Shown one piece after another: positions 46,674 through 54,609 of a DNA stretch of 64,000 nucleotides. The translations under genes and the position numbers were made by a program. Origin of the DNA: Spirosoma linguale DSM 74 (GTDB lineage Bacteria > Bacteroidota > Bacteroidia > Cytophagales > Spirosomataceae); assembly GCA_000024525.1 (NCBI GenBank), contig CP001769.1, positions 3,815,001 through 3,879,000 on the forward strand, given 5' to 3'. How positions within the stretch are numbered: the stretch's first letter is position 1; the number at the start of each line of letters is the position of its first letter. Under the pieces are notes generated by a model. The model made no database searches. It was not told the DNA's origin and saw only the letters and a program-made list of their open reading frames with translations.

Positions 46674-47816
46674 ATGAACTCAACCCGAATGCGATGTGAT
46701 GCCGATGTGATTATCATTGGGGGCGGTCTGGCCGGGTTGACCGCCAGCATTCATTTGACCCGCGCGGACGTACAAGTCTTACTGCTAGAGAAACAAGATT
46801 ACCCCCAGCATAAAGTCTGCGGGGAGTACATTTCTAATGAAGTACTGCCCTATCTGCAACACCTTGGTGTTGACATCGACGAGTTGAACCCCTCCCGAAT
46901 TAGCCGCTTCCTGCTGAGTACAGCGGCCGGAAAAACCGTCGAAAGTACATTACCGCTGGGCGGCTTTGGCGTGAGTCGCTACACCCTCGATCAGTTTCTG
47001 GCCGATAAAGCCAAATCAGCAGGCGTAGACCTTCGGCAAGCCGATGTTACGGATATTCAATTTGCGAACAATGTCTTTACGGTAACCACGGCGACAGAAC
47101 AAACATACACGGCTAAAATAGTTCTGGGTGCGTATGGCAAGCGATCTCAGCTGGACAAGCGGCTCAACAGACCGTTTGCCAGCCGGGAGTCGGGTTGGCT
47201 GGGCGTAAAAGCACACTACCAGGCCGATTTCCCGGACGACCTGGTGGCTCTGCATAATTTCGATGGTGGGTATTGCGGGTTATCTCAAGTTGAGAACGGG
47301 ATTGTGAACGCTTGCTATCTGGTTAATTACCGTAGTTTCAAAGCAGTTAAAAACATAGATTCCTTCCAGCAGCACGTACTGAGAAAGAACCCTTTCCTGA
47401 ATGAGTTTTTCGCCACGGCCACCCCTCTTTTTGCCAGGCCACTAACGATTAGTCAGATTTCGTTCGACAAAAAAAGTCCCGTCGAAAACCATATACTGAT
47501 GTGCGGAGACACGGCGGGCCTCATCCATCCCCTTTGTGGAAACGGCATGGCGATGGCCATTCACAGCGCCAAACTGGTATCGGAATTGGTCATTCAGTTT
47601 TTTAATGGTAAACTAGCGAACCGGGCCGCTTTAGAGAAACAATACACCAGCGGATGGTCGGCCGAATTTAGAACCCGGCTGTTGACCGGCCGCATCGCCC
47701 AAACAGTATTGTTATATCCGGCTATTACGAATGTTATACTAAAAAGCCTGCAACGAACGCCCGGTATACTGCCCATACTCATTAAGCAAACGCACGGCAA
47801 ACCCTTGTTGGTCTAA
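46674..47816 (+). CDS. FAD-dependent oxidoreductase (geranylgeranyl-reductase/hydroxylase family)
   Basis: 380 residues. Rossmann FAD-binding start DVIIIGGGLAGLTASIHL followed by VLLLEKQDYPQHKVCGEYIS, and the second FAD motif CGDTAGLIHPLCGNGMAMAI. This places it with the GGR-like/PHBH-like flavoprotein group, which hydroxylates aromatic rings or reduces double bonds. It is the first gene of the eight-gene polyketide operon, with 12 bp to the methyltransferase. Flavoprotein hydroxylase plus methyltransferase plus type III PKS is the logic of the srs phenolic-lipid operon of Streptomyces, so ring hydroxylation is a reasonable guess. Confidence 0.82.
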   Translation: MNSTRMRCDADVIIIGGGLAGLTASIHLTRADVQVLLLEKQDYPQHKVCGEYISNEVLPYLQHLGVDIDELNPSRISRFLLSTAAGKTVESTLPLGGFGVSRYTLDQFLADKAKSAGVDLRQADVTDIQFANNVFTVTTATEQTYTAKIVLGAYGKRSQLDKRLNRPFASRESGWLGVKAHYQADFPDDLVALHNFDGGYCGLSQVENGIVNACYLVNYRSFKAVKNIDSFQQHVLRKNPFLNEFFATATPLFARPLTISQISFDKKSPVENHILMCGDTAGLIHPLCGNGMAMAIHSAKLVSELVIQFFNGKLANRAALEKQYTSGWSAEFRTRLLTGRIAQTVLLYPAITNVILKSLQRTPGILPILIKQTHGKPLLV

Positions 47817-47828
47817 TTCGTTTATAGT

Positions 47829-48584
47829 ATGTCTGTCGTACCGGCAATGAATCCCCCTAAAGCGAACCTGATGTTTTTAAGTACTACGCAGCGTACCACC
47901 AAAGAAGAATACCTGGATGATTTCTCGTTAGAAGGCGACGAGCTGCGTGATGCCTTGGACAAAATTGCCATTATCAACCAATGGCTGGGCGGAAACCGGG
48001 TCACAATCGACGGTATTAAGGCATTACTTAAAAATCAGCCTAAAGACCGAATTTTCTCCATCATCGATATTGGGTGTGGCAATGGCGATATGTGTCGGGA
48101 AGTCGTTGATTTTGCCAAACAGGAAGGCATTCGGGTGGATGTGCTCGGAATCGACGCCAACGCATACACCGTCAATCATGCCAAAGCCAGTTCAACAGCT
48201 TATCCAACCATCCACTACGATACCCAAAACATCTTCGACGAGCGTTTTGCATCGGTCGAGTACGACATTGCGTTATGTACCCTGACGCTGCATCACTTTA
48301 CCGATCAGGAAATCCTGTATTTGATGGGTTTATTAGCCCAAAAAGCGAAAGTTGGCGTCGTTATCAATGACTTACAACGCTCGGCGCTGGCCTATCGGCT
48401 TTTTCAACTCATCTGCTTTGTCTTCCGGCTCAACAAACTATCGCGTGAAGATGGTCTGACGTCCATTTTGCGCGGGTTTAAAAAGCAGGAATTAGTCGCA
48501 TTTTCGAAACAATTACGGTTCACAGCCTATCGTATCAACTGGCGTTGGGCTTTTCGCTACCAATGGATCATTGAAACCCTATGA
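47829..48584 (+). CDS. Class I SAM-dependent methyltransferase
   Basis: 251 residues. SAM-binding motif I is IIDIGCGNGDMCREV, followed by VLGIDANAYTVNHA (acidic end of beta2) and ALCTLTLHHFTDQE (motif IV region). The C-terminal part (SRLRFTAYRINWRWAF-like) resembles lipid/quinone methyltransferases. It probably O- or C-methylates the phenolic product of the neighbouring type III PKS. Its stop overlaps the next start (ATGA), indicating translational coupling. Confidence 0.85.
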   Translation: MSVVPAMNPPKANLMFLSTTQRTTKEEYLDDFSLEGDELRDALDKIAIINQWLGGNRVTIDGIKALLKNQPKDRIFSIIDIGCGNGDMCREVVDFAKQEGIRVDVLGIDANAYTVNHAKASSTAYPTIHYDTQNIFDERFASVEYDIALCTLTLHHFTDQEILYLMGLLAQKAKVGVVINDLQRSALAYRLFQLICFVFRLNKLSREDGLTSILRGFKKQELVAFSKQLRFTAYRINWRWAFRYQWIIETL

Positions 48585-49633
48585 GTGTAAAAATTGCGGC
48601 AGTTGCAAAATCCTTACCTGAAAACTGGCGGGATACGAACGACATTTTACCATTTCTGGATACCTGGCTTGATGGTCAGGAAAGCCGTTTTCAACGAAAA
48701 GTAAAGAAGATTTTTGAGAATGCTGCCGTCGACCGGCGCTACTCCGTCATGAGCCCAACGGAGGTGTTTTCAATGACCTCGTTCGAAGACAAGAATGCCA
48801 TTTATAGCCGGGAATGCATTAAACTCGGCGAAGATGTACTCACCAAAGCGCTGGCTAAAGTCAACTGGCAAACCACTGACATCGACTACCTGATTACAGT
48901 AAGCTGTACGGGTATTATGATTCCGTCGCTGGACGCTTACCTGATCAACAGCATGCAGATGAAGCAGGACGTTGTTCGGTTGCCCGTAACGGAAATGGGC
49001 TGTGTGGCGGGCGTTTCGGGCATTATCTACGCCAAAAATTTTCTGAAGGCAAACCCCGGCAAACGCGCGGCACTACTGGCCGTCGAATCGCCAACGGCCA
49101 CGTTTCAGCTGAACGATTTCTCGATGGCCAACATCGTGAGCGCGGCCATTTTCGGGGATGGGGCCGCCTGCGTCCTGCTCTCGTCGCACGAGGATGATGA
49201 GGGACCGGAGGTAGTGTCGGAGGAGATGTACCATTTTTACGACGCCACCCACATGATGGGCTTCAACCTGACCAACAGCGGCCTGCAAATGGTGCTTGAC
49301 AAAGCCGTTACAGACAACATTGCCGAACACTTTCCAGCCATCATTCACCCGTTTCTGAAGAAAAACGGGCTGGTCATTGACGATATTTCGCACCTGATTT
49401 TCCACCCCGGCGGACGCAAGATCGTGGAGGTGGTACAGGAACTGTTCGGGAAACTGGGCAAGAATATTGACGACACCAAAGAAGTGCTGCGACTGTATGG
49501 CAACATGTCGAGCGCCACCGTACTTTACGTGCTGGAACGGTTCATGGACAGGCCGCTCAACAAAGGCGATTATGGCCTCATGTTAAGTTTCGGTCCCGGT
49601 TTTACGGCACAACGCGTTTTATTACAGTGGTAA
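48581..49633 (+). CDS. Type III polyketide synthase (chalcone-synthase fold)
   Basis: 350 residues, normal for the family. The catalytic triad is intact: Cys141 in TEMGCVAGVSG, His275 in LIFHPGGRK and Asn308 in LYGNMSSATV. Further marks are DYLITVSCTGIMIPSLDAYL and the C-terminal LMLSFGPGFTAQRVLLQW. The enzyme condenses malonyl-CoA units onto an acyl starter and cyclises the chain to an alkylresorcinol, alkylpyrone or acylphloroglucinol. The starter is probably a fatty acyl-ACP made by the downstream genes. It overlaps both neighbours, so it is cotranslated. Confidence 0.93.
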   Translation: MSVKIAAVAKSLPENWRDTNDILPFLDTWLDGQESRFQRKVKKIFENAAVDRRYSVMSPTEVFSMTSFEDKNAIYSRECIKLGEDVLTKALAKVNWQTTDIDYLITVSCTGIMIPSLDAYLINSMQMKQDVVRLPVTEMGCVAGVSGIIYAKNFLKANPGKRAALLAVESPTATFQLNDFSMANIVSAAIFGDGAACVLLSSHEDDEGPEVVSEEMYHFYDATHMMGFNLTNSGLQMVLDKAVTDNIAEHFPAIIHPFLKKNGLVIDDISHLIFHPGGRKIVEVVQELFGKLGKNIDDTKEVLRLYGNMSSATVLYVLERFMDRPLNKGDYGLMLSFGPGFTAQRVLLQW

Positions 49634-50424
49634 ACGAATTCTCAGGTACAAATTATTGGGCGGTTATTCTGGGTGGAAGTTCAGGACTGGGGTTGGCCAC
49701 GGCAAGAAAGCTGGCGAAACACGGCCTGAATCTGTGCATTCTCCACCGCACCCGAAAAATTGATCTGCCCAATGTTGACCGGGAGTTTGCTCAACTGGAA
49801 GCCGAAGGCGTTTTACTGAAGCAATTTAACGTCGATGCAACCAATCCGGAAAAGCGGGCGGAAGTTATTCTGAACTTAACCGAAGCCCTGGGCGCTACGG
49901 GCAAAGTCCGGACGCTTGTGCACAGCATTGCCAAAGGGAATTTAAAACCGATGGTTGCCGACGGCCAGCGTCCACTTCAGCACGACGATTTCCAGCTAAC
50001 CATCGACGCCATGGCCATTAGTTTGTACGACTGGACAAAAGCGTTGTTTGACGCGGGCTTGTTTGCCGCCGATACCCGCGTCATTAGCTTTACCAGCGAG
50101 GGAAGCCAGAAGGCCTGGCGAAATTATGCCGCCGTTTCGGCTGCCAAAGCCGCACTGGAAGCCATTTCCCGAAATATTGCGCTGGAAATGGCCCCGTTTG
50201 GTATCCGCGCCAACTGCATCATGGCGGGCGTTACGGATACGGCCTCGTTTCGCCTGATTCCGGGAGCCAATGTCCTGCGGAGTCACAGTCTGGAACGCAA
50301 CCCCTACTCGCGGCTGACAACCCCCGAAGACGTGGCTAACGTGGTTTATTTACTTTGCAAAGACGAAGCGGCCTGGATCAATGGGGCCGTTATTCCGGTC
50401 AATGGTGGCGAACATCTTCAATAA
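49627..50424 (+). CDS. SDR with FabI-like active site (putative enoyl-ACP reductase)
   Basis: 265 residues from a GTG that overlaps the PKS stop by 7 bp. The cofactor loop is GGSSGLG (16-22), as in classical SDRs. LVHSIAKGN and Tyr167-x6-Lys174 (NYAAVSAAKAALEAISR) follow the enoyl-ACP reductase pattern rather than YxxxK. The C-terminus, GAVIPVNGGEHL, is usual. It may reduce the enoyl-ACP made by the dehydratase, or act as ketoreductase, the one activity otherwise missing from the operon. Confidence 0.8.
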   Translation: MVNEFSGTNYWAVILGGSSGLGLATARKLAKHGLNLCILHRTRKIDLPNVDREFAQLEAEGVLLKQFNVDATNPEKRAEVILNLTEALGATGKVRTLVHSIAKGNLKPMVADGQRPLQHDDFQLTIDAMAISLYDWTKALFDAGLFAADTRVISFTSEGSQKAWRNYAAVSAAKAALEAISRNIALEMAPFGIRANCIMAGVTDTASFRLIPGANVLRSHSLERNPYSRLTTPEDVANVVYLLCKDEAAWINGAVIPVNGGEHLQ

Positions 50425-50433
50425 CTGATACGC

Positions 50434-50880
50434 TTGCAGCAGTTTACATCCATACTCGAAAAGCTCCCGTACAGCAAACCCTTTCTGTTTGTCGACACGC
50501 TGCATCATATTGACGAAAATGGCGTGGAAGGCAGCTACACTTTTCCCAAAGATTCATTCTTTTATACCGGTCATTTTAAACAGGCACCCGTAACACCGGG
50601 GGTTATCCTGACGGAAGTGATGGCCCAGATTGGCGTGGTTTGCCTCGGTATTTTCCTGCTGGCCGACGCCCTGACCGACGATCTGTCCATTGCAATGACG
50701 AGCACACAGATCGACTTTTACAAACCGGTTTTTCCCGGAGAAACCATTATAGTTCGATCAACAAAAGAGTATTTTCGATTTCATAAGTTAAGATGTAAGG
50801 TCGAGATGCTGAACAGCCGGGGCGAACTGGTTTGCCGGGGCAGTATTTCGGGCATGATGAAACCCACTACGTATGCGTAA
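50434..50880 (+). CDS. FabA/FabZ-like 3-hydroxyacyl-ACP dehydratase
   Basis: 148 residues, start codon TTG at 50434, 9 bp after the previous stop. Hotdog fold with the FabZ motif GHFKQAPVTPGVILTEVMAQ (His47, Pro55-Gly56, Glu61). It should remove water from a 3-hydroxyacyl chain held on the operon's acyl carrier protein. It overlaps the next gene by 8 bp. Because FabZ normally serves membrane lipid synthesis, a second copy here points to a dedicated acyl pathway. Confidence 0.87.
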   Translation: MQQFTSILEKLPYSKPFLFVDTLHHIDENGVEGSYTFPKDSFFYTGHFKQAPVTPGVILTEVMAQIGVVCLGIFLLADALTDDLSIAMTSTQIDFYKPVFPGETIIVRSTKEYFRFHKLRCKVEMLNSRGELVCRGSISGMMKPTTYA

Positions 50881-52144
50881 CCGAGTTGTTATTACGGGTC
50901 TGGGTGTTGCGGCACCCAATGCGGTGGGCATCCCGTCGTTTCTGGACGCGATTCAGGCGGGGAAAAGCGGCATTGTGTTTCAGCCCGATCTGGCGGAGCT
51001 GAAATTCTCGTGCCAGATTGGCGGTATTCCGCCAGTTAACGAAGCCATTAGAAATCAGTATTTCAGCGAACTGCAACTCCGTCAACTCAACAGCAGTGGC
51101 ATCATCTATGGCGTGATCGCGGGCATGGAAGCCTGGCAAAATGCCGGATTACCCGTTGCCACCGATGAGCCGGATTGGGATAGCGGTATCGTTTTCGGCA
51201 CGGGTATGCTGGGCGTCGATAAATTCCGGGAGTCCATTTACAAAGTCGATGAGGGTCAGGTCAGGCGGTTGGGCAGCACGGTTGTTATCCAGACGATGAC
51301 CAGTGGTGTAAGTGCCTTTCTCGGTGGTATGATTGGCTGCGGCAATCAACTGTCGGCCAATTCATCGGCTTGTGCTACGGGTACGGAAGCCCTGTTGCTG
51401 GGATACGAACGCATTGCCAACGGACAGGCAAAACGGGTACTGGCGGGTAGTTGCAGTGACCACGGCCCGTACATTTGGGGTGGGTTCGACGCCATGCGCG
51501 TGATGCCGTATCAGTTCAACAACGACCCCGAACGGGCGTCGAGGCCCCTGAGCGCCACGGCCAGCGGATTCGTGCCGGGCAGCGGTGCTGGTGCGCTGGT
51601 GCTGGAATCGCTGGAGTCGGCGCTGGAGCGGAAGGCCACCATTTACGCCGAGGTGCTGGGCGGACATCAGAATTCGGGCGGGCAGCGGGGCGGTGGTTCC
51701 ATGACGGCCCCCAACGCGCAGGCCGTAAAGCGATGCATTCAGCAAGCCATTCAACAGGCAGGGGTTCAGCCCGACGATATTGACATTATTGATGGGCATT
51801 TGACGGCCACCATTAAAGACGCAGCCGAAGTAACGGCCTGGTGCGAAGCCCTCGGTCGGCGGGGGGACGATTTTCCGTATATTAACTCGCTGAAGTCGAT
51901 GGTGGGGCATTGCTTAAGTGCCGCCGGGAGCATCGAGTGTGTGGCATCCGTGCTGGAATTGCACCACGGATTCGTTTACCCGTCCATCAACTGCGAAGAC
52001 CTTCATCCGGAAATTTCGGCCCTGATCGCGCCGGAACGAATCCCGCAACAGGTAATTAAACAAAATAGTACCGTACTTGCGAAGGCCAACTTCGGGTTCG
52101 GCGATGTCAATGCCTGTGTTATCTTAAAGACGTTTTATCAGTAA
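50873..52144 (+). CDS. Beta-ketoacyl-ACP synthase (KAS II/FabF-like)
   Basis: 423 residues. Catalytic triad intact: Cys167 in NSSACATGTEALL, His309 in IIDGHLTATIKDAAE and His346 in SMVGHCLSAAGS, with Lys341 nearby. The usual NAHGTGT loop reads DGHLTAT, a divergence from housekeeping FabF. It elongates an acyl-ACP chain with malonyl-ACP. It overlaps the dehydratase by 8 bp and lies 8 bp before the acyl carrier protein. Confidence 0.9.
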   Translation: MRNRVVITGLGVAAPNAVGIPSFLDAIQAGKSGIVFQPDLAELKFSCQIGGIPPVNEAIRNQYFSELQLRQLNSSGIIYGVIAGMEAWQNAGLPVATDEPDWDSGIVFGTGMLGVDKFRESIYKVDEGQVRRLGSTVVIQTMTSGVSAFLGGMIGCGNQLSANSSACATGTEALLLGYERIANGQAKRVLAGSCSDHGPYIWGGFDAMRVMPYQFNNDPERASRPLSATASGFVPGSGAGALVLESLESALERKATIYAEVLGGHQNSGGQRGGGSMTAPNAQAVKRCIQQAIQQAGVQPDDIDIIDGHLTATIKDAAEVTAWCEALGRRGDDFPYINSLKSMVGHCLSAAGSIECVASVLELHHGFVYPSINCEDLHPEISALIAPERIPQQVIKQNSTVLAKANFGFGDVNACVILKTFYQ

Positions 52145-52152
52145 ACAGCCGT

Positions 52153-52413
52153 ATGCAAACCAAAGACGAGTTAATTACCACGCTTAAAGAAATCGTAAAA
52201 CCGTACGTTCAGGACGAACAGGCGTTCGAGCACGTTACCGAGCGTACGGATTTCATCAATGACCTAAAAATCAACTCGGCTAATCTGGTCGATATTGCCC
52301 TGGATGTTGAGGAAGAATTCGATATTGTGATTGATAACGAAGCCATGGAACAGATGCTGACGGTAGGTTCATCCATGGATGTCATCACCCGGAAACTGGC
52401 CGAAAAAGCATGA
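52153..52413 (+). CDS. Acyl carrier protein
   Basis: 86 acidic residues. The phosphopantetheine Ser is Ser42 in NDLKINSANLVDIALDVEEE, where the common DSLD is replaced by NSAN. The rest keeps the four-helix ACP pattern (EFDIVIDNEAMEQMLTVGSS). It should carry the acyl chain between the KAS, dehydratase and reductase, then deliver it to the type III PKS. Its stop overlaps the phosphopantetheinyl transferase start by 4 bp. Confidence 0.9.
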   Translation: MQTKDELITTLKEIVKPYVQDEQAFEHVTERTDFINDLKINSANLVDIALDVEEEFDIVIDNEAMEQMLTVGSSMDVITRKLAEKA

Positions 52414-53024
52414 TTGGGAACGATATTGTCGATTTAGCCCAGGCAAAACGCGAGAGTAACTGGCGCCGAAGGGGCTATCTCGACAAAATCTTTACTCCCG
52501 ACGAGCAACAACTAATTCAGGCAGCCATCGACCCCGACCAGATGGTCTGGCTGCTATGGAGCATGAAAGAAAGCGCCTATAAACGGGCTGTTCGGCGCAC
52601 ACACAACCGCGCTTTTGCTCCTTCAAAAATCGCGTGTCACCTTACGGCATCGACGGCCGATGCTGCGGAAGGCGTCGTGTTTTACCAGGGAACCCATCAA
52701 ACAAAATCAATTAGTACGTCCCGGTATATCAGCACCGTGGCGTTTGCTACCAATGCGATGCCTGGCTACACGCAGGTCATCGTTCCCTTTGAGACGACCC
52801 ATTTTCAGACGCATCAGTACCAGATTCGGGAGCAGATCAGGCAGCACAGCGCCCGGTTATTCAATACTCCTGAACAGAAGATTCTTATTTCGAAAGACAG
52901 TATCGGGGCTCCCCTATTAACGGTTGGCGATTCTGTTCCGGTACTGCTTTCAATAAGCCATCATGGGTTGTATGGGTCGTTTGTTATTGGGGCAGCCGTT
53001 GGTTTACCTGTTGCCGTCCTATAA
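52410..53024 (+). CDS. 4'-phosphopantetheinyl transferase
   Basis: 204 residues. Motifs MIGNDIVDLAQAK (Asp5, Asp8) and LLWSMKESAYKRA (Lys53, Glu54, Lys58) are the magnesium and CoA-binding core of the Sfp/AcpS superfamily; the length suggests a Sfp-like pseudodimer of reduced size. It should load the operon's own acyl carrier protein with phosphopantetheine from CoA. It is the last gene, ended by a hairpin at 53087-53130. Confidence 0.9.
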   Translation: MIGNDIVDLAQAKRESNWRRRGYLDKIFTPDEQQLIQAAIDPDQMVWLLWSMKESAYKRAVRRTHNRAFAPSKIACHLTASTADAAEGVVFYQGTHQTKSISTSRYISTVAFATNAMPGYTQVIVPFETTHFQTHQYQIREQIRQHSARLFNTPEQKILISKDSIGAPLLTVGDSVPVLLSISHHGLYGSFVIGAAVGLPVAVL

Positions 53025-53544: not shown

Positions 53545-54609
53545 TTGATCCGTGAGTAAGTTTGTAATGTGATTGCCTTTTGCTTTTGATGGCAAACTAC
53601 AAACAATCTGATTACGAAGCCCTTCGCCGACGCTGTATTGAACTCAGTCAGGTAGGATGGAAACAAGCAGCTATTGCTCAGGTGTTTGGCCTAACTCAGC
53701 CTTGGGTGAGTCGGACACTTAAGAAGTACAACCAGCAAGGTTTGACCGCCTTGCAAGAAGGGAAGCGAACCGGAGCACCACCCCGTTTGTCGGCTCAGCA
53801 ACTGGATCTACTCGTGATTGAACTCAACAAAGGGGCGGAACATCATGGATTTAGTGGAGCCATCTGGACCCGTCCCCGAGTTAATGAAGTCATTAAGAAG
53901 CTCTTTGGTGTCAGCTATGACCCTTCTCAGGTAGGCCGTATCCTCAAGAAAGTAGGCTGGAGCCGACAGTTGCCGCAACGTAAAGCCAGTCAACAGGACG
54001 CTCAGGCAGTTACTCAGTGGCGCAGCGAACGCTTACCCGAACTTAAAAAAAGCTAAAGCCGAGGGGCGCGTTATCTTATATATTGATGAATCAGCGTGTT
54101 ATCTATTGCCTTTTGTGGCCCACACTTGGGCACCTTGCGGACAGACACCGGTCTTAATGGAGCAAGCGGGGCGGACTCATTTGAGCTTAATTGCGGCCAT
54201 TGCTGCGAACGGTCAAATTTATGTGGCAGGTCAAAACCAGGCATTCACTAGTGAAGATATAGTATGGTTTTTAAAACTACTCTGTGGGCGTTATCGCAAA
54301 CGGAACCTGCTGATTATTTGGGATGGCGCAGCAATCCATCGTAGCAACGTCGTTAAAGAGTTACTTCGTGAACGCCTTGGCCGAATGCATCTGGAACGCT
54401 TACCCGCTTATAGTCCGGAGCTAAATCCAGTTGAACTGCTATGGAGTCAATTGAAAAGAAACTTAAAAAACAAAGCGTTCACAAGCTTGGACGAACTGAC
54501 TGTAGCTGTTCTTGAGCAAACCAAGCGACTAGAGAAGGACCCTAAATCAGTAAAAGCCTTCTTCAATAAAAAGGAAATAGCGTTTATTACAGACTAATTC
54601 ACGAATCAA
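53545..54609 (+). mobile_element. IS630-family insertion sequence (1065 bp) with TA target duplication
   Basis: The ends are imperfect inverted repeats: TTGATCCGTGAGTAAGTTTG at 53545 and TTGATTCGTGAATTAGTCTG read inward from 54609, matching at 20 of 24 positions over 24 bp. Both are flanked by TA (53543-53544 and 54610-54611), the target of the IS630/Tc1 group. It carries one transposase spread over two frames and interrupts a minus-strand membrane-protein gene. Confidence 0.85.
53589..54597 (+). CDS. IS630 transposase, two frames joined at an A7 run
   Basis: The first frame (53589-54056, MANYKQSDYEALRRR) holds the helix-turn-helix (WKQAAIAQVFGLTQPWVSRT) and a second DNA-binding part. The second frame, from 54052 to 54597, holds the DDE catalytic core: VILYIDESACYLL (first Asp), LLIIWDGAAIHRSN (second Asp), LPAYSPELNPVELLWSQLK (Glu). 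The join lies at seven A (54045-54051), where reading six A, a net +1, gives LPELKKAKAEGRVIL. Slippage at such runs is known for bacterial IS transposases, but a plain mutation is also possible. Confidence 0.8.

Follow-up and report, generated by a model that had tools for sequence, protein, structure and literature searches.

Operons that combine a type III polyketide synthase (PKS) with a methyltransferase (MT) and an oxidoreductase have been described in several bacteria. A total of 58 planctomycetal operons carry genes for an MT, a flavin adenine dinucleotide (FAD) oxidoreductase and a type III PKS, and pentadecyl- and heptadecylresorcinols were made in C. glutamicum (PMC10896814). The hierridin operon hidABC and the cylindrocyclophane (Cyl) route have been described (PMC8086630), and PKS-MT-oxidoreductase operons make polyketide quinones (PMC9927152). 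The acyl carrier protein (ACP) domain of ArsA provides the chains that ArsB and ArsC use, and hexanoyl-ACP is accepted by GCS and SCO7671 (PMC6274091); the Azotobacter ars cluster is also covered elsewhere (PMC3098273). Here we analyse an eight-gene type III PKS operon of Spirosoma linguale DSM 74, which lies at positions 46674-53024 (+) of a 64,000-nucleotide stretch (contig CP001769.1, positions 3,815,001 to 3,879,000; hereafter the window). With a probability of about 0.6, we read it as a phenolic-lipid (alkylresorcinol-type) operon that builds its own starter chain. In this reading, it is a variant of the phenolic-lipid operon that includes its own type II-like chain cassette and an optional enoyl reductase.

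The window operon resembles the hid and planctomycetal operons in combining a type III PKS, one MT and one oxidoreductase in tight packing; alkylresorcinols were shown for the planctomycetal PKSs and hierridins for hid. However, the gene order is MT-oxidoreductase-PKS in those operons (PMC10896814) compared to FAD enzyme-MT-PKS in the window. The available texts mention no private beta-ketoacyl-ACP synthase (KAS), dehydratase (DH), ACP or 4'-phosphopantetheinyl transferase (PPTase) for them (PMC8086630, PMC10896814), and their starters are C14 acyl-ACP or C16-C18 acyl groups. The pkqABC and S. griseus operons also possess a PKS, an MT and an oxidoreductase or hydroxylase and make alkyl benzoquinones, but comprise three genes, with no acyl cassette mentioned in the accessible text (PMC9927152). 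In the ars system a dedicated fatty acid synthase feeds an ACP-bound chain to type III PKSs (PMC6274091, PMC3098273), as proposed here; unlike the type I synthase of ars, the window operon encodes discrete type II-like proteins that form an incomplete set with an optional enoyl reductase. There is also a likeness to CylB and CylI, where the early chain is borne by a free-standing ACP and resorcinol closure falls to a type III PKS, although the Cyl route has type I PKSs, a halogenase and CylK (PMC8086630).

The sequence-only reading of the window knew of no characterised product for this gene combination, and no characterised cluster or product matching the eight-gene operon was found in searches of an open-access library. 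In their accessible portions, PMC10896814, PMC8086630, PMC9927152, PMC6274091, PMC3098273, PMC10734526, PMC7440613, PMC9859067 and PMC6139392 do not describe the unit or its product, and those of PMC12565237, PMC8307928 and PMC9248904 hold nothing on it. The operon is of interest because type III PKSs make up about a tenth of the counted biosynthetic gene clusters of Flavobacteriaceae (10.74%; PMC10734526). They account for 9% in a smaller set (PMC7440613) and occur in all eight Leeuwenhoekiella species with no MIBiG match (PMC9859067). In our view, the operon is probably one of these common uncharacterised Flavobacteriaceae clusters.

Gene content and conserved catalytic residues

The operon consists of eight intact open reading frames (ORFs) on one strand, which Pfam and NCBIfam scans assign, in order, to an FAD enzyme, an MT, a type III PKS, a short-chain dehydrogenase/reductase (SDR), a DH, a KAS, an ACP and a PPTase. 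ORF coordinates and family scans thus confirm the eight intact, tightly packed genes seen by the sequence-only reading. At four of the seven junctions, the genes share 4-8 bp (MT/PKS by 4 bp, ATGA; PKS/SDR by 7 bp; DH/KAS by 8 bp; ACP/PPTase by 4 bp, ATGA), and three are spaced by 8-12 bp (FAD-MT, 12 bp; SDR-DH, 9 bp; KAS-ACP, 8 bp), the FAD-MT gap becoming 54 bp with the MT start at 47871. All operon matches in the NCBIfam tables shown fall under the curated cut-offs, which fits a specialised set rather than housekeeping enzymes.

The type III PKS (48581..49633, +; 350 aa; PF00195/PF02797) has the triad C141/H275/N308, which is kept in 81/81 sequences; this and the following residue counts take in the window protein plus its fetched relatives. 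Among solved proteins, it scores best against Pks11 (174.6 bits), which acts in alpha-pyrone synthesis, followed by CylI (146 bits). ArsB W281 and ArsC G284 mark the residue relevant to resorcinol versus pyrone formation (PMC6274091). The best NCBIfam model is DpgA (NF042429), yet assignment as this 3,5-dihydroxyphenylacetyl-CoA synthase was rejected at 188.8 bits against a cut-off of 425.

Downstream of the PKS, the SDR (49627..50424, +), an optional part of the operon, keeps Y167-x6-K174 in 36/36 copies, a spacing which we take to be the catalytic one of the enoyl reductases FabL and FabI. In all 36 copies a Ser stands where FabI presumably has its second Tyr. Among NCBIfam models, FabL scores highest (135 bits; equivalog cut-off of 328 not reached), and the best solved relative is the enoyl-ACP reductase 3oic, so that the earlier description of the SDR as enoyl-reductase-like holds. 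The FabZ-like 3-hydroxyacyl-ACP dehydratase (50434..50880, +; PF07977, 48.2 bits) scores 57.6 and 63.9 bits against FabZ models, under their cut-offs, and keeps H47/E61 in 80/80 sequences. In the FabF-like KAS (50873..52144, +; PF00109/PF02801; fabF model, 263.6 bits, cut-off 493.75), C167 is kept in 77/78 (one gap), and H309, K341 and H346 in 76/78 (two gaps). The ACP (52153..52413, +) keeps its phosphopantetheine serine S42 (INSAN) in 74/74; it has no Pfam match at E<=0.001 and is recognised by NCBIfam ACP models alone, at no more than 42.6 bits and all under cut-off. The PPTase (52410..53024, +) matches PF01648 with 46.8 bits, above the cut-off of 25. The catalytic residues, earlier described as intact in the window, are thus intact in the relatives as well.

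Elsewhere in the 8.49 Mb window genome, there are one other FabF-like KAS frame (418 aa) and three weaker ketosynthase-model matches; a ketosynthase domain lies within a 2275-aa open frame on a different contig (C3:77041-77787), which is probably a type I polyketide synthase. One other DH homologue was found, with 32% identity in a 467-aa frame, and no other SDR exceeds 33% identity in this genome. The KAS, DH and SDR of the operon are thus separate copies rather than the bulk fatty-acid enzymes.

Two tailoring genes precede the PKS. The FAD-dependent oxidoreductase (46674..47816, +; 380 aa) belongs to the FAD_binding_3/geranylgeranyl-reductase superfamily (PF01494, 55.1 bits). The top fold matches of its AlphaFold2 model (pLDDT 88.3) include the halogenases PltA, ChlB4, Mpy16, Bmp2 and RadH and a Cytophaga flavoprotein, in addition to 3-hydroxybenzoate 6-hydroxylase and a geranylgeranyl-reductase-like protein. 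Despite the close folds, a FAD-dependent halogenase was rejected, as WxWxI, which we take to be the halogenase motif, occurs in 0/81 proteins. A geranylgeranyl reductase was likewise rejected, with 114.6 bits for TIGR02032 against a cut-off of 158.8 and with YxWxFP, presumably the motif of that family, in 0/81. Given these mixed fold matches and the absence of both motifs, ring hydroxylation is a plausible role for the FAD enzyme.

The class I S-adenosylmethionine (SAM) MT (47871..48584, +) matches PF13649 with 40.4 bits and the PRK06202 model with 133.4 bits (cut-off 243). Its longest ORF begins at 47829; however, the consensus of 32 aligned proteins begins at M15, and the start is probably at 47871. 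Its AlphaFold2 model (pLDDT 91.4) matches CysG(N-16), Coq5, NovO and CouO among others, resembling C- and O-methyltransferases alike, so that the fold search does not tell the two apart. The sequence-only reading had likened the operon to srs, the S. griseus phenolic-lipid operon. The srs methyltransferase is of the ICMT type and the window MT is a class I SAM enzyme; the likeness therefore stands for the gene classes but probably not for the MT family.

Distribution of the operon and its acyl cassette

A pattern scan of 84,980 species genomes gave 532 candidate stretches encoding a relative, the best 80 of which were fetched, a choice that favours close relatives; the phylum sample comprised 395 Bacteroidota genomes. 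This comparison across genomes revealed that the operon recurs through Bacteroidota and is not unique to this strain. The PKS clade is present in 33/395 genomes at 65-100% identity, with next-best matches falling to 37%, and in 18/36 genomes of the window's genus, the window genome counted (E<=1e-100). The nearest named operon relatives are from Spirosoma (PKS, 98-99%), and the fetched loci include Spirosoma, Siphonobacter, Flavobacterium, Pedobacter, Winogradskyella, Polaribacter, Aequorivita, Dokdonia, Chitinophaga and Kaistella. The MT and FAD oxidoreductase adjoin the PKS on the same strand in 80/80 fetched loci, and flanking gene families are common to at most 27/80. Because the flanking genes vary, the operon is a discrete unit, and the recurrence of gene order and strand across Bacteroidota makes it more than a chance arrangement; it is a widespread and apparently orphan unit of this phylum. 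Eight loci of distant type III PKSs (32-37%; L118-L125) were hand-picked from the phylum list rather than taken strictly in rank order; among the ORFs retained there, none matched any of the remaining seven operon proteins (E<=1e-4), although the ORF filter for L118 also missed the PKS.

Locus gene counts were made by BLAST at E<=1e-5, which divergent PPTase or ACP genes can escape. Six of the 80 loci were excluded for having less than 6 kb after the PKS start, and minus-strand hits, hits at least 7.5 kb from the PKS and SDR hits below 40% identity were dropped. In the remaining 74 loci, the FAD enzyme, MT and PKS are each present in 74, the DH and KAS in 73, the ACP in 71, the PPTase in 63 and the SDR in 31.

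In the sampled phylum, the KAS is strictly coupled to the PKS. A KAS search (E<=1e-100) over the 395 genomes matched 38, and the 33 with at least 60% identity are exactly the 33 PKS-clade genomes; in 33/33 of these the KAS lies 3' of the PKS, on the same contig and strand and within 3 kb. This strict neighbourhood supports the earlier reading, in which acyl genes and PKS form one system. Five further genomes hold a related cassette (KAS, 49-54% identity) without this PKS clade. The cassette therefore looks portable and, judging from gene neighbourhood, like an acyl-ACP builder adopted by different consumers.

Two of these five genomes carry the cassette beside a flexirubin/dialkylresorcinol locus. 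In L113 (8155-16544) and L114 (8276-18066), homologues of SDR, DH, KAS, ACP and PPTase (28-54% in the matches listed) adjoin the DarB locus, which was recognised in L113 by DarB (614.7 bits, cut-off 550) and DarH (443.1 bits, cut-off 300) and placed in L114 by a DarB search (74%). Unlike the window operon, these loci lack a type III PKS of this clade. The window operon itself was rejected as a flexirubin or dialkylresorcinol locus, as its genome lacks DarB at E<=1e-90. At this threshold 31 genomes have DarB, and only two of them bear the cassette beside it, so that the cassette was also rejected as a general partner of flexirubin loci; the pattern suggests that flexirubin-type genes captured it in one sub-lineage. 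The other three genomes have a DH-KAS-ACP set (L115:8597-13746, L116:7325-11689, L117:7606-11856), with an SDR as well in L115. There, the cassette adjoins a 378-416 aa protein, the L115 copy of which, the one scanned, is a GNAT match (25.6 bits, cut-off 20.7), and lies beside a GT2-type glycosyltransferase (scanned in L115 and L116). These three appear as lipid-like loci.

The SDR is the variable member of the operon, being present in 31/74 loci and missing from 43/74. A quick operon tree with several long branches was built from five joined proteins, SDR excluded (1551 columns), for 74 operons (73 loci plus the window), of which 32 are SDR-plus and 42 SDR-minus; locus L051, which lacks DH and KAS, was excluded. 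On this tree, six changes are required to explain SDR presence, as many as the well-supported branches impose by themselves; 23/24 Flavobacterium loci and all Pedobacter loci are SDR-minus. The possibility that SDR-less strains keep the enzyme elsewhere was rejected, as 20/20 SDR-less operon genomes tested had no SDR relative genome-wide (E<=1e-30), two SDR-plus controls being positive.

Inserts that appear, by eye, unrelated occur between operon genes in L055, L069, L072, L078, L084, L105, L111, L007 and L026. At L069:11082-11666 and L084:11988-12554, ORFs resembling, by eye, REP-associated transposases lie inside the operon ahead of the DH; in the Polaribacter locus L069, it is exactly here that the SDR is lacking.

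Proposed pathway and competing explanations

We infer every reaction of the operon, as well as the ACP hand-over, the chain length and the product. The PPTase would charge the operon ACP, after which the KAS would condense malonyl-ACP with the growing acyl-ACP, a ketoreductase and a malonyl transacylase borrowed from primary metabolism would act, the DH would dehydrate, and the SDR, if present, would reduce the enoyl group. The type III PKS would then receive the acyl-ACP at its Cys141, add malonyl units and cyclise the product to a resorcinol (or a pyrone). Finally, the FAD enzyme may oxidise the ring and the MT methylate it, yielding a methoxy-hydroquinone or a quinone-like lipid. The operons of type III PKS, MT and oxidoreductase linked to alkylresorcinols or quinones may serve as precedents by analogy, as may ArsA to ArsB/ArsC and GCS for direct ACP-to-PKS transfer. 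What the sequences themselves establish are the intact genes, the conserved catalytic residues, the strict KAS-PKS coupling in the sampled phylum, a related cassette in other contexts and an SDR that has come or gone repeatedly on its own. The near-constant gene set of the 74 loci, the KAS-PKS coupling, the lack of matches to the other seven proteins at the distant PKS loci, the cassette beside DarB and the separate enzyme copies in the genome speak for this pathway. If it is true, the operon is a compact gene set that delivers a custom starter chain on an ACP to a type III PKS.

Several observations weigh against this pathway. Neither a dedicated ketoreductase nor a malonyl transacylase turned up among the operon proteins in the Pfam and NCBIfam scans, for which reason both would have to be borrowed. 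The earlier notion of private acyl machinery stands for the coupling of KAS and PKS but not as a self-sufficient set, since these two enzymes were not recognised in it; in addition, many loci lack the SDR. The ACP was undetected in 3/74 loci and the PPTase in 11/74, one locus of the 74 (L051) has the PKS, FAD enzyme and MT without the acyl cassette, and the cassette without this PKS in five genomes means that co-location is no proof of ACP hand-over. DpgA is the best model for the PKS, though far under its cut-off. As to the hydroxylase role, the G. maris MT and FAD genes in C. glutamicum led to a single methylation, and the available product table lists no hydroxylated compound (PMC10896814), which lends this role no support. 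The interpretation given by the sequence-only reading is, as a whole, partly supported.

An unlikely alternative is that the cassette, rather than building a chain de novo, subjects a housekeeping acyl-ACP to one or two special rounds, giving for example a 2-enoyl or polyenyl chain, and that the SDR determines whether double bonds are retained. Besides the PKS, the scans of the operon recognised neither a ketoreductase nor a FabH-like starter enzyme, the SDR alone is gained or lost through the six changes forced on the tree, and the SDR-less genomes tested hold no relative of it, all of which favour this explanation; however, housekeeping enoyl reductases might act on the operon ACP, so that double bonds need not persist where the SDR is lacking. 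Distinctly improbable is a reverse order, in which a small ring is first formed from malonyl-CoA by the PKS, in a DpgA- or phloroglucinol-like manner, and is then extended or acylated by the KAS cassette. In its favour, DpgA, the best NCBIfam model, uses malonyl-CoA alone, and phloroglucinol synthesis by a Zobellia type III PKS is reportedly claimed in a patent, although searches for this claim found nothing. A type III PKS from Aequorivita shares 69% identity with that from Zobellia (PMC6139392), and presumably belongs to the window PKS clade, where four fetched Aequorivita PKSs fall. Against this order, Pks11 and CylI, the two solved proteins that score best with the PKS, are an alpha-pyrone synthase and an enzyme that uses acyl chains, respectively, and the Pfam scan of the operon brought up no acyltransferase, ligase or enoyl-CoA-hydratase-like gene. 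We regard as highly improbable that the two halves are independent and that the cassette supplies an unusual fatty acid for some other purpose, merely co-transcribed with phenolic-lipid genes. The 5/38 KAS-bearing genomes (E<=1e-100) without this PKS, three of them with the GNAT-like protein and GT2-type glycosyltransferase alongside, speak for such independence, whereas the KAS stays adjacent in 33/33 PKS genomes of the sample while the flanking genes vary.

We tentatively propose, while holding it doubtful, that the operon is switchable and that gain or loss of the SDR sets chain saturation: SDR-plus operons, that of the window among them, would make rings with saturated or partly reduced alkyl chains, and SDR-minus operons conjugated polyenyl resorcinols or quinones. 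The SDR-minus products would then be an overlooked class of Bacteroidota pigments or redox lipids, parallel to flexirubins and made with a related cassette. If the starter-chain pathway is true, the natural SDR-plus/SDR-minus pairs, such as Winogradskyella wandonensis and W. pacifica (L055 and L094), bear directly on whether one reductase sets saturation.

Flanking genes and a second type III PKS

Promoter-like sites (8 versus 7.6 expected) and terminator-like sites (11 versus 8.2 expected) gave no usable signal. By eye, ORFs resembling a sugar transporter and a fructokinase lie 5' of the operon on the opposite strand, and the two ORFs immediately 3' of it (window 53580-54597) resemble an IS630-type transposase split over two frames.

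The same genome encodes another type III PKS of 404 aa, which is distant from that of the window operon (26% identity; C1:3053430-3054056; L126:5410-6624). Its best solved relatives are a chalcone/stilbene-synthase-like entry and PKS18. It is followed on its 3' side by a protein resembling, by eye, a UbiA-type prenyltransferase and by a gene with 30% identity to the window MT over 245 residues.

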